From Halomarina litorea (lineage in GTDB: Archaea > Halobacteriota > Halobacteria > Halobacteriales > Haloarculaceae), in contig NZ_CP100448.1 of NCBI RefSeq assembly GCF_024227715.1, positions 186,001 through 250,000 of the forward strand: DNA of 64,000 nt, read 5' to 3'. Positions 2,936-34,961 of this stretch are shown here, piece by piece. The notes under the pieces were generated by a model. The model searched no databases and was not told the DNA's origin. It saw nothing but the letters and a program-made list of their open reading frames with translations. The position numbers were made by a program, and so were the translations under genes. How positions within the stretch are numbered: the first letter of the stretch is position 1; every line of letters starts with the position of its first letter.

Positions 2936-3373
2936 ATGGGTGACCCGACCGTGACCCTCCGGCCGGCCGACGGCCTCGCGTACGTCGAGACCCTCCTCGA
3001 GCGAAACGACCTGCCGACGGCCGACGTGCGGACGGCACCCGCGCAGTTCTACGTCGGCCTCGTCGACGGCGACCCGGTGGGCGTCGGCGGCGTCGAGCGA
3101 TACGGGCCCGACGCCCTCCTGCGCTCCGTCGTCGTCGAGGAGCGAGTGCGGGGAGGTGGGGTCGGGGCGGCGCTGTGCGATGCGCTGGAGGCGACGGCCC
3201 GCGACGCGGGCGTGGAGACGCTGTACCTGCTCACCACCACCGCGGCCGAGTTCTTCGCCGCCCGGGGTTACGTCCGGACCGACAGGGACGACGTCCCCGA
3301 CACCGTCCGGGGGTCCCCCGAGTTCGAGGCGCTGTGCCCCGCGAGCGCCGTCCCCATGCGAAAGCCGCTCTGA
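2936..3373 (+). CDS. arsN2: GNAT acetyltransferase resembling arsenic-resistance ArsN2
   Basis: A 145-residue GNAT protein. The acetyl-CoA loop is VVVEERVRGGGVGAAL (about 67-82). The C-terminal half carries the pattern typical of ArsN2: YLLTTTAAEFFAARGY, then ...PEFEALCPASAVPMRK near the end, where the LCPASA segment is characteristic. ArsN-type enzymes are thought to acetylate toxic organoarsenicals, but no other ars gene is visible in this window, so the role in arsenic resistance is by family resemblance only. It lies 50 bases after the class V aminotransferase on the same strand. Confidence 0.75.
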   Translation: MGDPTVTLRPADGLAYVETLLERNDLPTADVRTAPAQFYVGLVDGDPVGVGGVERYGPDALLRSVVVEERVRGGGVGAALCDALEATARDAGVETLYLLTTTAAEFFAARGYVRTDRDDVPDTVRGSPEFEALCPASAVPMRKPL

Positions 3374-31186: not shown

Positions 31187-32245
31187 TCAGTCCGCCGTCT
31201 CGCCGGTGTCGCCCTCGCCGCCCGGCTCCGCCCCCTCCAGCCGCGCCGCGTAGTACGACAGCGGGTGGTCGATGGTCGCACAGAGGTCGTCCCTGTTCAC
31301 GCAGTCGCCCCACGCCTGCGTGGTGGCACAGCTCGGCGAGGGGTACGTGCCCGCGCCCGACTCGTCGCTCGCCAGTCGCTCCGCCGTGTAGGTGAACTGC
31401 TCGTCGGAGCGGCCACAGAGCGCCGTGATGGCGGCGGCGTCCATCCCGACCGTGGCGAGAAAGGAGACGAGCGCGAACCGCGAGCGGTGGGGCAGTTCCT
31501 CGCCCGCCTGCGCCCGGTCGAGAAGCGCCGCGATACACGGCGGGAACGAGTCGGGGTCGACCCGGTCGAACGACCGGGGGTAGTCCGCGCTCGACAGGGT
31601 CGCGGAGACGGACTCCGCGACGGGGGCGAGGGGGTCCGCTATCTCGTCGGGCACCGCCAGCGGCAGGCCGTCGGCGACCCGGTTCTCGACGGCCTGTCGA
31701 AGCAGGTCGTACAGTTCGCTCCGGGTGACCGTCACCGCCCCGTCGCCGAGTTCGCGCCGGACGAGTCGCCACGACTCCCCCTCCGGGGCCAGTTCGAGGT
31801 ACTCGCCCACGTCGACGCGGTAGTCCCCGTCGACCGACCGGACCGACCCCGCGAGGCCGAACTCCCGGAGGAAGGCGTCGAGCGAGACGTCGGGGTCGCC
31901 CCCGCCGAGGCGCGACTGACCGCCGCGCTCGAGGTCCTCGACGAACCGTTCGTGGGCGGTGGCCGCCTCGCTCGCGGCGTACTTCTCGACCGCTCCCGGC
32001 GCGTCCAACAGGGAGACGACGACGCGGGCGATGGGGTAGGAGAGGACCTCCGTGCGGGCGTCGACGCGCGGGTCCTCGCTGGCGACGGTCCCGGCGACGA
32101 GTGCACGTTCGACCCGCTCGCGGCCGCGAGTCACCGCCGGGTGGTCGCGCTCGCGGTTCACCAGGTCGACGAGTGCGACGTCCGCCCGCTGGACGGCCTC
32201 TCGGGCACCGTCGAGGAACGGGTAGCGGGCGTGACGGGCGTCCAT
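31187..32245 (-). CDS. priL: DNA primase large subunit
   Basis: A 352-residue partner of the catalytic primase subunit, needed to start RNA/DNA primers at the fork. The C-terminal iron-sulphur domain has cysteines at 237 (FPPCIAALL), 277, 306, 315 and 322 (PSPSCATTQAWGDCVNRDDLCA). Four of these should bind a [4Fe-4S] cluster; C237, C306, C315 and C322 are the likely set. The N terminus is MDARHARYPFLDGAREAV. PCNA lies 2 kb away, an arrangement kept in haloarchaea, but interrupted here by a foreign gene. The ATG at 32245 is used; the frame continues upstream without protein character. Confidence 0.92.
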   Translation of the reverse strand: MDARHARYPFLDGAREAVQRADVALVDLVNRERDHPAVTRGRERVERALVAGTVASEDPRVDARTEVLSYPIARVVVSLLDAPGAVEKYAASEAATAHERFVEDLERGGQSRLGGGDPDVSLDAFLREFGLAGSVRSVDGDYRVDVGEYLELAPEGESWRLVRRELGDGAVTVTRSELYDLLRQAVENRVADGLPLAVPDEIADPLAPVAESVSATLSSADYPRSFDRVDPDSFPPCIAALLDRAQAGEELPHRSRFALVSFLATVGMDAAAITALCGRSDEQFTYTAERLASDESGAGTYPSPSCATTQAWGDCVNRDDLCATIDHPLSYYAARLEGAEPGGEGDTGETAD

Positions 32246-32505: not shown

Positions 32506-33093
32506 GTGCGGTTCCGTTACCCCTGTCCCGACTGTCGGAGCGCCAACAGTCTCCACGGCCCGGAGTGCCGGTTCGACGGGACGCCGTGGCACGAAATCGA
32601 GCGGGCCTACGCCGACATCGTGGCCGTCCTCTCGGGCGGCGCGACGACGGAGGGACGACTCCGTGAAGCGGTGGAGGGGCCGTGGGACAGCCTCCGCTCC
32701 GCGGCGCTCTCGCGTCTCCGCCACGAGCAACGTCTCCGGGAGACGCCTGGCGGGGCGCTCGAACTGCTCTCGCCCGCCGAGTTCAAAGAGCAGGTGTCCG
32801 AACCGACGATGGAACCCATCCGCACCGTCTACGAGAAGGGGTCGGTGCCGGGCACCCACGACAACGCCGTCTTCGCGCTCGTCGCCTACTACGAGATGGT
32901 GGGCCTCTCGTGGCCCGAGACGAAGGAGAACGTCGTCGCGTGGCTCCACGAGTCGGGGACGTGGGCGCGCGGCGGGTTCGAGGAGGCCACGCCCGAGGAA
33001 CTCGTCGAGTCGAAACGCCACGTCTACACGGCGGGCTACGGCTGGAAGGAGAAGGCGCGGGCGGCGAAGGCGGTCATCGACCGCTCGCTCTGA
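32506..33093 (+). CDS. Haloarchaeal zinc-ribbon protein beside priL and PCNA (DUF7474-like)
   Basis: A 195-residue protein. The N terminus is a zinc ribbon, RYPCPDCRSANSLHGPECRFDG (about 4-25, with at least three Cys plus His). A winged-helix-like part follows (ADIVAVLSGGATTEGRLREAV, then SAALSRLRHEQRL), and the C-terminal half is a helical domain with YEMVGLSWPETKENVVAWLHESGTWARGG. The combination suggests nucleic-acid binding. The place between priL and pcn is a reason to suspect a replication role; that is inference. Start is the GTG at 32506. Confidence 0.75.
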   Translation: MRFRYPCPDCRSANSLHGPECRFDGTPWHEIERAYADIVAVLSGGATTEGRLREAVEGPWDSLRSAALSRLRHEQRLRETPGGALELLSPAEFKEQVSEPTMEPIRTVYEKGSVPGTHDNAVFALVAYYEMVGLSWPETKENVVAWLHESGTWARGGFEEATPEELVESKRHVYTAGYGWKEKARAAKAVIDRSL

Positions 33094-33148
33094 TCCATGG
33101 ACAGGAGCACTATGATAATCAGGAACATCAGGGTTCGAAGGTAGAGTT

Positions 33149-34028
33149 GTGTCTGGTGTTCGAGATATCCAGCTAGTAGAAGCTGGGTCGGGGACTCGCT
33201 ACCGAGCACAGTACACCATCGGGGTAGATGAGTCCGGGAGTCCAAGAGGGGACGGGCCGTACGTGTTTGCAGCAGTACAATGTTCGAGGGAAAAAAGTGA
33301 GTGGCTAGCAGAGCAGTTAGTTAGTACTGGTCTCGAACCCTGGCGGAGTAAGTCCCGTTCGAGAACTGCTGTCCTTAGTGGCGATGAACTGAACGCTCGA
33401 ATCGTTCCTCGAATCAGTGTACTCGACAGGAATAACGGTGGCCGTAGTCGGTGGCTGGGACGACTACACAGTCCGACAACGGGCCGCGACAGCGAATATT
33501 GTGACAACGAAGGCACTAACTATGGACTCGTCACCAGAGTACTCAGGAGATAGTGCAGTCATGCTGCACGACGGGAGCGAGGACACATATGGACGGACCC
33601 AGAAGTACCTCCGCCAACACGCTGCATCGCAGTTCGGCAACGGCTTCGATTCTCGTGTCTGTCCCGTTTACACAGCTGCGCTGCCGAAAGCCGACCTCTC
33701 ATATCCTGAAGTGACTGCAGCGGACTACATCGCTGGTTACGTGCGCAACCGGATGATATCGGGAATCGGTTTGGAGTCGTTAGCCCTGAATGTAGCAAGA
33801 ATCGATTCGTCTTGGAAAGCATCGAACGATGGCGTTCCAAGTGCGTTCTACCGACTACGAACGTCTGGTAGCGTCCAGCAGAGTACAGAACGGTCGCGCG
33901 TAGTAGCGTGGATGCAGGGTCGACGGCTTCCAAGGGACAGTACGGTAAGTGGCCGCAGACAGTACGAAAATATGATTGACCGGATCCAGTCTGAGACACT
34001 GCGAGAGTATCTACTGAGACTGGAGTAA
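33149..34028 (+). pseudogene. Frameshifted, low-GC RNase H-fold (DUF3800/RNase HII-like) gene
   Basis: Two overlapping frames form one protein of about 292 residues. Frame one, from a GTG at 33149, has RYRAQYTIGVDESGSPRG then DGPYVFAAVQC, resembling the start of DUF3800 or RNase HII proteins, where the Asp-Glu pair would be catalytic. At about 33389-33393 the frame must shift by +1: ...LSGDEL then TLESFLESVYSTGITVAVVGGWDDYTV. It continues to the stop at 34028 with MLHDGSEDTYGRTQKYLRQHAASQF and EVTAADYIAGYVRNRM. Codons AGG, AGA, ATA and TTA are frequent and GC is far below the neighbours, so horizontal transfer is likely. Confidence 0.65.
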
Positions 34029-34217
34029 GTTGAAATCGGAAGTCAACAGGACGGGAGCTTTGACCTCGCGTCCCTAACCGGAACGCACCCCGCGGATTGC
34101 AAGGGTACGTACCGCTTCCTCAACTATAGGTTGAGTCCGATTGCTGATAAGGCTTGCCCACAGATAGCTACATCGGAGCGTCCAAAAAAAAGAGTAGAGA
34201 GCGTCGTTTGATACGTT

Positions 34218-34961
34218 TCAGTCGCTCTGGATGCGGGGGGCGAGCATGTAGGTGACGTTGCCCTGCCCCTCCGCGATGTCGAAGTGGAGTTTGACGGGGA
34301 ACTCCTCGCCGAGTTCGATGGTGACCTCGGCGTCCTTCGGGATGGCCTTGTTCATCTCCTTGAGGTAGTCGAGGCTGAACAGCGAGTGGGCGTCGCCCGG
34401 CGAGAGGTCGATGAGGTCCTCCCGGGTGAGTTCGAGGTGGACGTCGTCGGTGTCGCCCTGCGCGTCGACGTAGAACGTCTCGGCCTCGGTGTCGACGCCG
34501 AGTGCGATGTGGTCGGAGACCATGTCGGCGGCCTTCACCGCGCGGTCGATGTCGCGGCCCTCGACGACGATCTCGGCGGCGAGGTCCAGGTCGGGCAGGT
34601 CGGGTTCCTGCCGGATGGAGTCGGGGTCGATGAGCGCGAGGGTGTACTCCAGCCCGTCGAACTCGATGTGGAGCTTGCGGGTCTCCTCGTCGAGTTCGAG
34701 GTGGACCAGCTGGTCGGCGTCGGCCATCTTCGCGATCTCCTCCAGACGCGAGAGGTTGACGCCGATGACGCCGCCGTCGGTCTCGTAGGACTCGAAGGCC
34801 GCGGTGTCGAGCGAGAGGTCGACCATGCCGACGTTCGCGGGGTCGACGGCGCGAATCGTGAGCTCGTCCTCGTCCAGTCGGATCTTGCACTCCTCTACCA
34901 GCACGCTCACCGAGTCGAGCGCCGCCCGGAGCGTCCCCGAGCTCACGATAGCCTTGAACAT
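34218..34961 (-). CDS. pcn: PCNA sliding clamp
   Basis: A 247-residue homotrimeric DNA clamp that tethers polymerase and other replication proteins. It has the two-domain PCNA fold: [47 protein letters not shown] at the start, the interdomain loop about 115-130, and the C-terminal [11 protein letters not shown], which forms part of the PIP-peptide groove. Strong net negative charge is typical of halophile PCNA. It is loaded by RFC, of which one small subunit is at 16698. Confidence 0.96.

Follow-up and report, generated by a model that had tools for sequence, protein, structure and literature searches.

The insert beside pcn

What kind of gene interrupts the GC-rich surroundings of pcn in a 3.9-Mb haloarchaeal genome, and what accompanies it, is the question raised by the 64,000-nucleotide stretch analyzed here (G000:C1:186001-250000, hereafter the window). 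An earlier note had described positions 33094-34200 as a low-GC foreign gene. The GC content of this interval is 53.7% compared to 68.3% for the window, the lowest-GC 1.1-kb stretch in all 64 kb falls within it, the GC3 of the inserted gene is 0.54 versus 0.92 for six neighbor genes, and the codons AGA, AGG, ATA, TTA, and CTA amount to 5.5% in the gene versus 0.5% in the same neighbors (about 10-fold). These values, together with the absence of the gene from all seven same-genus genomes, bear out a foreign origin. The note had also placed the gene between priL and pcn, which holds on the right, where pcn (PCNA; 34218-34961, minus strand; PF00705/PF02747) follows directly; on the left, however, the immediate neighbor is a DUF7474 gene (32506-33093, plus strand; PF24286, E = 2e-99), with priL (primase large subunit; 31187-32245, minus strand; PF04104, E = 1.7e-19) one gene further. 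When the interval was compared among relatives, as the note had proposed, the gap between the DUF7474 gene and pcn measured 1124 bp in the window and 48 bp in the same-genus genome G055, and it was occupied by other sequence in G053 and G057 of this genus. The congener gaps at loci L033, L034, and L038, set against window positions 33094-34217, measure 48, 1128, and 648 bp and are unrelated in what they contain. To judge from these sequences, the gap looks like a small insertion-prone site, and because it varies within the genus the splitting of a replication neighborhood remarked on in the note is judged incidental. The inserted unit, which has approximate edges at 33097-34170 and no single strand, comprises the gene with its upstream region and a convergent structured RNA with its promoter.

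A gene broken by a single frameshift

The gene lies in two pieces on the plus strand. The N-terminal part (33149-33391), defined by its open reading frame and by alignment with intact homologues, has a GTG start and a GVDESG motif; the C-terminal part (33393-34028, with the stop codon at 34026-34028) is in another frame, carries LHDG and KADLSYPEVTAADYIAGY motifs, and matches the family profile at E = 2.0e-68. Frame 2 is open over 33149-33553 and contains the VDESG sequence that had been reported, and frame 0 is open from after the TGA at 33390 to 34028 and contains AADYIAGY. Alignment to nine intact homologues brings the pieces together at a single point near 33391, in agreement with the join at about 33389-33393 that had been proposed, and shows no other notable gap. 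A weak candidate AT-rich promoter box for the gene (33109-33119, plus strand) was read from the sequence alone.

Most family members elsewhere are single open reading frames and the join has no obvious slippery site, and on these grounds a programmed frameshift was rejected. A sequencing error, with the module being intact in this genome, would suit a single lesion that leaves the motifs and the RNA all intact, but we consider it unlikely because the break falls within a non-homopolymer stretch, other family members are often broken as well (L011, L025, L086, and L136), and the aligned relatives have two extra residues at the join, which suggests a deletion. The window copy is probably a relic in which the protein is dead and an intact RNA has been left behind.

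A protein family with a predicted RNase HII-like fold

Intact homologues of ∼290-300 residues (∼295) occur as single open reading frames in Halobaculum, Haloarcula, Natrinema, Halorussus, Halospeciosus, and others. The family is present in 35 of 391 sampled haloarchaeal genomes, a count that takes in fragments and a few weak matches, and ∼26 of the copies are full-length (∼7%). Homologues were also located on seven plasmids, and a protein search of phage records returned no match. The dN/dS values of the intact copies (0.05-0.24) indicate purifying selection.

No Pfam or NCBIfam model scored above its cut-off for the family, with RNase HII as the sole recurrent weak match (∼14 bits versus a Pfam cut-off of 25.8, and ∼15 bits versus NCBIfam cut-offs of 123-285). 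The DUF3800 model (PF12686) was unmatched in 10 of 10 family members and in the host genome. Structure prediction, which the note had also suggested, was carried out by AlphaFold on nine sequences (pLDDT 82, pTM 0.87), and the best 28 PDB matches in Foldseek were all RNase HII, H2, or HIII (probability 1.00), headed by 1eke (E = 2.8e-8, TM 0.45/0.56). A profile search of the PDB likewise matched 1eke, at E = 0.0074; PPR matches in that search were set aside as repeat artifacts. The best viral structure match was a DUF3800 protein (E = 2.4e-4). The DUF3800/RNase HII-like identity first assigned to the gene is thus upheld by the predicted fold and the viral match, with the curated models below cut-off.

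Residues D24-E25 (GxDESG), D137-G138, D178, and D188 (AD..YP...AADYIAGY) are invariant in the family, and, going by motif order, D24, E25, D137, and D178 are candidates for the four catalytic acids D-E-D-D of RNase HII. The family reads DESG followed by N, S, R, Q, or D, and the host's own rnhB reads DEAGKG. L142, a true DUF3800 protein, reads ADSKQYPGIQFAD where the family reads ADLTYPEVTAAD. The module protein resembles RNase HII (rnhB; 1eke) in its fold and in the order of its acidic motifs (GxDE..., DG, AD..YP), but it has no G-[RK]-G substrate signature after DE(A/S), possesses a C-terminal extension, and, unlike the universal RNase HII, is scattered and RNA-partnered. According to these models, the protein is predicted to have an RNase HII/DUF3800 fold and would be expected to act as a nuclease.

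A structured RNA convergent to the gene

Overlooked in the earlier note is an 86-nt structured RNA with a three-way junction (34037-34122, minus strand, 5′ end at 34122) that begins 9 nt past the gene stop and is convergent to the gene. It scores 83 bits (E = 5.3e-21) with model R1, which was built from 27 sequences including the window RNA, is the sole copy that the model search found in its genome, and folds with −38.9 kcal/mol (z = −2.9). Members of this RNA family (class 1) are 84-90 nt long, form a three-way junction on the strand opposite the gene, and follow directly after the stops of intact genes. The sequence past the stop is better conserved than the gene, as illustrated by L008 and L009, which are 88% identical over 92 bp there and ∼69% identical in the gene.

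In a plain MAFFT alignment of the 27 sequences the covariation was 0.33, versus 0.14 ± 0.01 when shuffled and at most 0.22 when slid. In the model-fitted alignment, which leans toward structure, the covariation was 0.50, against 0.17 shuffled and no more than 0.14 slid; 92% of the cells were paired versus at most 43% when slid, and double-sided changes were observed in 20 of 28 pairs. The P3 loop and the junction are the best conserved parts of the RNA, and even where the proteins have little sequence in common their RNAs retain the P3 hairpin, which points to recognition. These observations bear on whether the RNA works only as an antisense regulator, overlapping the nuclease mRNA at its 3′ end and shutting it off through base pairing. 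Such a role would suit the convergent layout at the stop and the overlap of the RNA with coding sequence in L019, L025, and the L022 group, but plain pairing needs no conserved secondary structure, yet both the double-sided changes and the P3 hairpin have been maintained, and we regard this role as distinctly unlikely.

Read on the strand opposite the gene, G-U exceeded A-C by 22 to 3 in P1 and P3, where some sequences share one pair so that events are fewer than counts. Minimum free energy favored the same strand in 27 of 28 sequences, a criterion that is partly composition-driven and for which shuffle z-scores were mixed between the strands. The archaeal promoter layout consists of BRE, TATA, and −10 elements, and the pattern upstream of the RNA fits its haloarchaeal form. 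In the window, the RNA promoter (34123-34158, minus strand, spaced as in 27 relatives) includes a BRE-like GGCAAG (34153-34158), a TATA-like CTTATC (34146-34151), and AA at −10/−9 (34131-34132), all on the minus strand. Counting from the first base of the RNA in 28 sequences, A is found at −33 in 93% and at −32 in 82%, the box at −28 to −25 is 93-100% AT with T/W at −29 to −25, and TA occupies −10/−9 in 75/89%. An RNA on the gene strand was rejected in view of the G-U and A-C counts and this promoter. Because the promoter lies on the strand opposite the gene, gene and RNA are convergent, and the RNA is predicted to be made from its own promoter toward the gene.

The predicted 5′ end of the RNA is at, or a few nucleotides from, stem P1, and its 3′ side enters the gene. 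We asked how these ends compare with those of an RNA-guided nuclease, in which an RNA scaffold and guide would direct the RNase H-fold protein to nucleic acid, as in TnpB and IscB. An RNase H-fold protein and an adjoining noncoding RNA in a compact mobile unit would be in keeping with this possibility, and DUF3800 has been reported beside noncoding RNAs and Cas12a2 (PMC10910872). In contrast to TnpB and IscB, however, neither end reads variable flank that could supply a guide, the 5′ end being fixed at P1; no long variable unpaired segment is present among 37 sequences, and the Pfam search matched neither RuvC nor HNH families. An RNA-guided activity is, in our estimation, highly improbable.

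Rfam 15 contained no family related to the class 1 RNA at E ≤ 2, and the RNA was not found beyond haloarchaea in a phylum sample. IMG/VR, when searched with three patterns, yielded no virus-borne copies (putative escape antitoxins); 12 matches to one pattern were dismissed as chance (12-17 bits).

Gene and RNA occur together

The RNA was found beside all 25 intact gene loci of the 391 genomes. It also accompanies the divergent homologues L022, L023, L024, and L085, which did not go into the RNA model (44-49 bits), and seven of seven plasmid genes (44-90 bits), a set that is only partly independent because two of the seven seem to be the G063 and G309 copies and three of the RNAs are identical or near-identical to model members. 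Of the 40 RNA loci that reach E ≤ 0.001 in the 391 genomes, 25 have an intact gene, 8, including that of the window, have one that is broken or truncated, and 7 have no gene remnant. The single gene lacking the RNA, in G424, has lost its C-terminus as well; both are replaced at this locus (L139, ∼2700-2880) by a MITE-like sequence with long inverted repeats (TCATAGGGTCGTGCGTAGA...). In L130 (G067; reverse complement 2418-2924), an in-frame deletion has removed approximately residues 137-272 and the RNA is retained.

The 15 of 40 RNA loci that are without an intact gene fit an antitoxin, yet the gene is a 10-fold larger mutational target and some orphans are decaying: several keep 89-96% of their pairs and others are down to 59-82%. 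For these reasons the orphan RNAs were not accepted as proof of an antitoxin, and the asymmetry in retention of gene and RNA is weak evidence for one. One orphan class 1 RNA (L128, 3004-3088, plus strand) lies 25 bp past the stop of a convergent open reading frame that appears integrase-like by eye, and it might be an attachment site.

The gene and RNA form a mobile unit

Halobaculum locus L004 and Haloarcula locus L006 have 1133 bp in common at 88% identity between unrelated flanks, and the shared unit is 1.03-1.13 kb in other groups. Relative to the 5′ end of the RNA, related units share the region from about −1030 to −1063 through +35 to +69, again with unrelated flanks. The common stretch of the L002 group stops just outside both promoters, and the L150/L151 group has sharp shared edges. 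Neighbors of the unit include plasmid replication and partition genes, resolvases, integrases, IS elements, and assorted chromosomal genes. Plasmid NZ_CP122313.1 of Halospeciosus flavus (L005 and L007) contains two copies, 99.8% identical over at least 8.5 kb with the module included, and in G048 (L020 and L028) a stretch of at least 3.9 kb that includes the module occurs twice in identical form, ∼100 kb apart on one chromosome.

These comparisons support the view that gene and RNA form a compact, scattered, mobile module that is often on plasmids. The suggestion that the gene is mobile cargo was thus well founded, given a conserved ∼1.1-kb unit with unrelated flanks in different genera and on plasmids; the defense role mentioned with it is no more than a possibility, with no meaningful match for the family in PADLOC. 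Unrelated flanks around ∼1.1 kb in different genera, and the sharp common edges of the L150/L151 group, would also be expected of a transposable or recombining element in which the gene encodes a recombinase that uses the structured sequence as its DNA end or attachment site. Against this, inverted terminal repeats are absent from the unit ends of four members and target duplications are not evident in L150/L151, the single sharp-edged group, findings on which an insertion sequence was rejected. In one group the edges held in common fall at the two promoters, the excess of G-U over A-C exchanges and the promoter point to RNA rather than DNA, and the fold is RNase HII-like rather than that of a known transposase. 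We assign such an element a very low likelihood.

Proposed role and comparison to known systems

Considering the gene and its break, the predicted fold, the structure, strand, and promoter of the RNA, the linkage, and the mobility, each established by sequence and computation, the most economical reading and best explanation would be a nuclease restrained by its RNA. We give it close to an even chance, and more weight than antisense control, RNA-guided action, or transposition. The RNA would fold into its three-way junction, bind the protein by way of its conserved parts, the P3 hairpin loop and the junction, and control the nuclease, most likely by blocking its activity for as long as the RNA has not been lost or titrated. 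Release of the restrained nuclease could then act as addiction or defense, comparable to type III or AbiF-like RNA antitoxins. We infer the RNA-protein binding, the nuclease activity, and the toxin/antitoxin direction from these features. That the window holds a copy of a two-component module of haloarchaea, acquired horizontally and since broken by a frameshift, and that this module is an RNA-controlled nuclease is, as a joint statement, about evenly balanced.

The toxins of type III toxin-antitoxin systems have a fold different from that of the module protein. Like ToxIN, CptIN, and TenpIN, the module is a compact pair of protein and structured RNA found on plasmids and chromosomes. The type III RNA is a tandem repeat located upstream in one operon with a terminator, and in ToxIN it restrains the toxin (PMC5086642), whereas the module RNA is single, downstream, on the opposite strand, and served by its own promoter. 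In AbiF/RCd22 (Abi_2 family) a structured noncoding RNA similarly adjoins the protein gene and, acting in cis as well as in trans, binds the toxic protein directly and so neutralizes it (PMC12373285), but this system is bacterial and its protein family and RNA are unrelated to those of the module.

Other RNAs beside true DUF3800 genes

True DUF3800 genes were detected in 21 of the 391 haloarchaeal genomes, and two further classes of RNA-like elements lie next to them. Class 2 is a conserved hairpin of ∼60 nt, present once or as a tandem pair past the DUF3800 stop at 11 loci (L142, L143, L166, L167, L169-L172, L174, L175, and L182); it is located ∼20-100 bp past the stop, with AT-rich antisense boxes downstream. 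Class 3 is a conserved ∼165-nt RNA-like element past the stop of a second DUF3800 subgroup at seven loci (L144, L173, and L176-L180), where most of the proteins begin MQGFGDVSGH. Both classes were judged briefly, by folding and base-pair counting only. Each of their sequences gives the more stable fold on the strand opposite the gene (7 of 7 for class 3), and G-U exceeds A-C by 43 to 10 (class 2) and 51 to 8 (class 3), each counted on the structure predicted for that strand. They are unrelated to the class 1 RNA, share its convergent layout, and were unmatched in Rfam 15 at E ≤ 1. No such element was seen at the DUF3800 loci L165 and L181.

The closest known kind of system is the bacterial DUF3800-associated RNA motifs, DUF3800-I to -XI, which were reportedly described by Weinberg et al. 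in 2017 (RF02968 and RF02969 in Rfam). As in those motifs, a structured RNA adjoins a DUF3800-like gene of the RNase H fold; unlike them, the module is haloarchaeal, its protein falls outside the DUF3800 model, and its RNA has no Rfam relative at the threshold given above. The RNase H fold of DUF3800 proteins and an earlier association with noncoding RNA have been noted (PMC10910872), and RF02968 and RF02969 are listed (PMC11701678). As far as the literature and Rfam were searched, the haloarchaeal members, the family outside the DUF3800 model, the three RNA classes, and the convergent promoter layout are new. Somewhat short of an even chance is the broader joint proposal that the RNase H fold of a family of RNA-controlled haloarchaeal nucleases has repeatedly acquired small RNA partners unrelated to one another (at least three classes), in every case convergent and with a dedicated promoter; that these represent archaeal RNA-antitoxin or ribonucleoprotein defense distinct from type III toxin-antitoxin systems and RNA-guided nucleases; and that they offer a functional key to the bacterial DUF3800 motifs. 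For the DUF3800-associated RNAs, themselves candidate structured RNAs, the archaeal pairing makes the question of function approachable, since hosts such as Haloarcula vallismortis, Haloarcula japonica, Haloplanus, and Haloferax gibbonsii are cultivable and related to genetically tractable haloarchaea. The convergent layout of gene and RNA provides a search rule for further systems of this type, and the module suggests recruitment of the RNase HII fold into the role of a mobile effector with an RNA partner. At one locus (L135), an orphan class 1 RNA (3017-3103, plus strand) lies ∼660 bp from a true DUF3800 gene bearing a class 2 hairpin, with a restriction-endonuclease-like fragment between the two.
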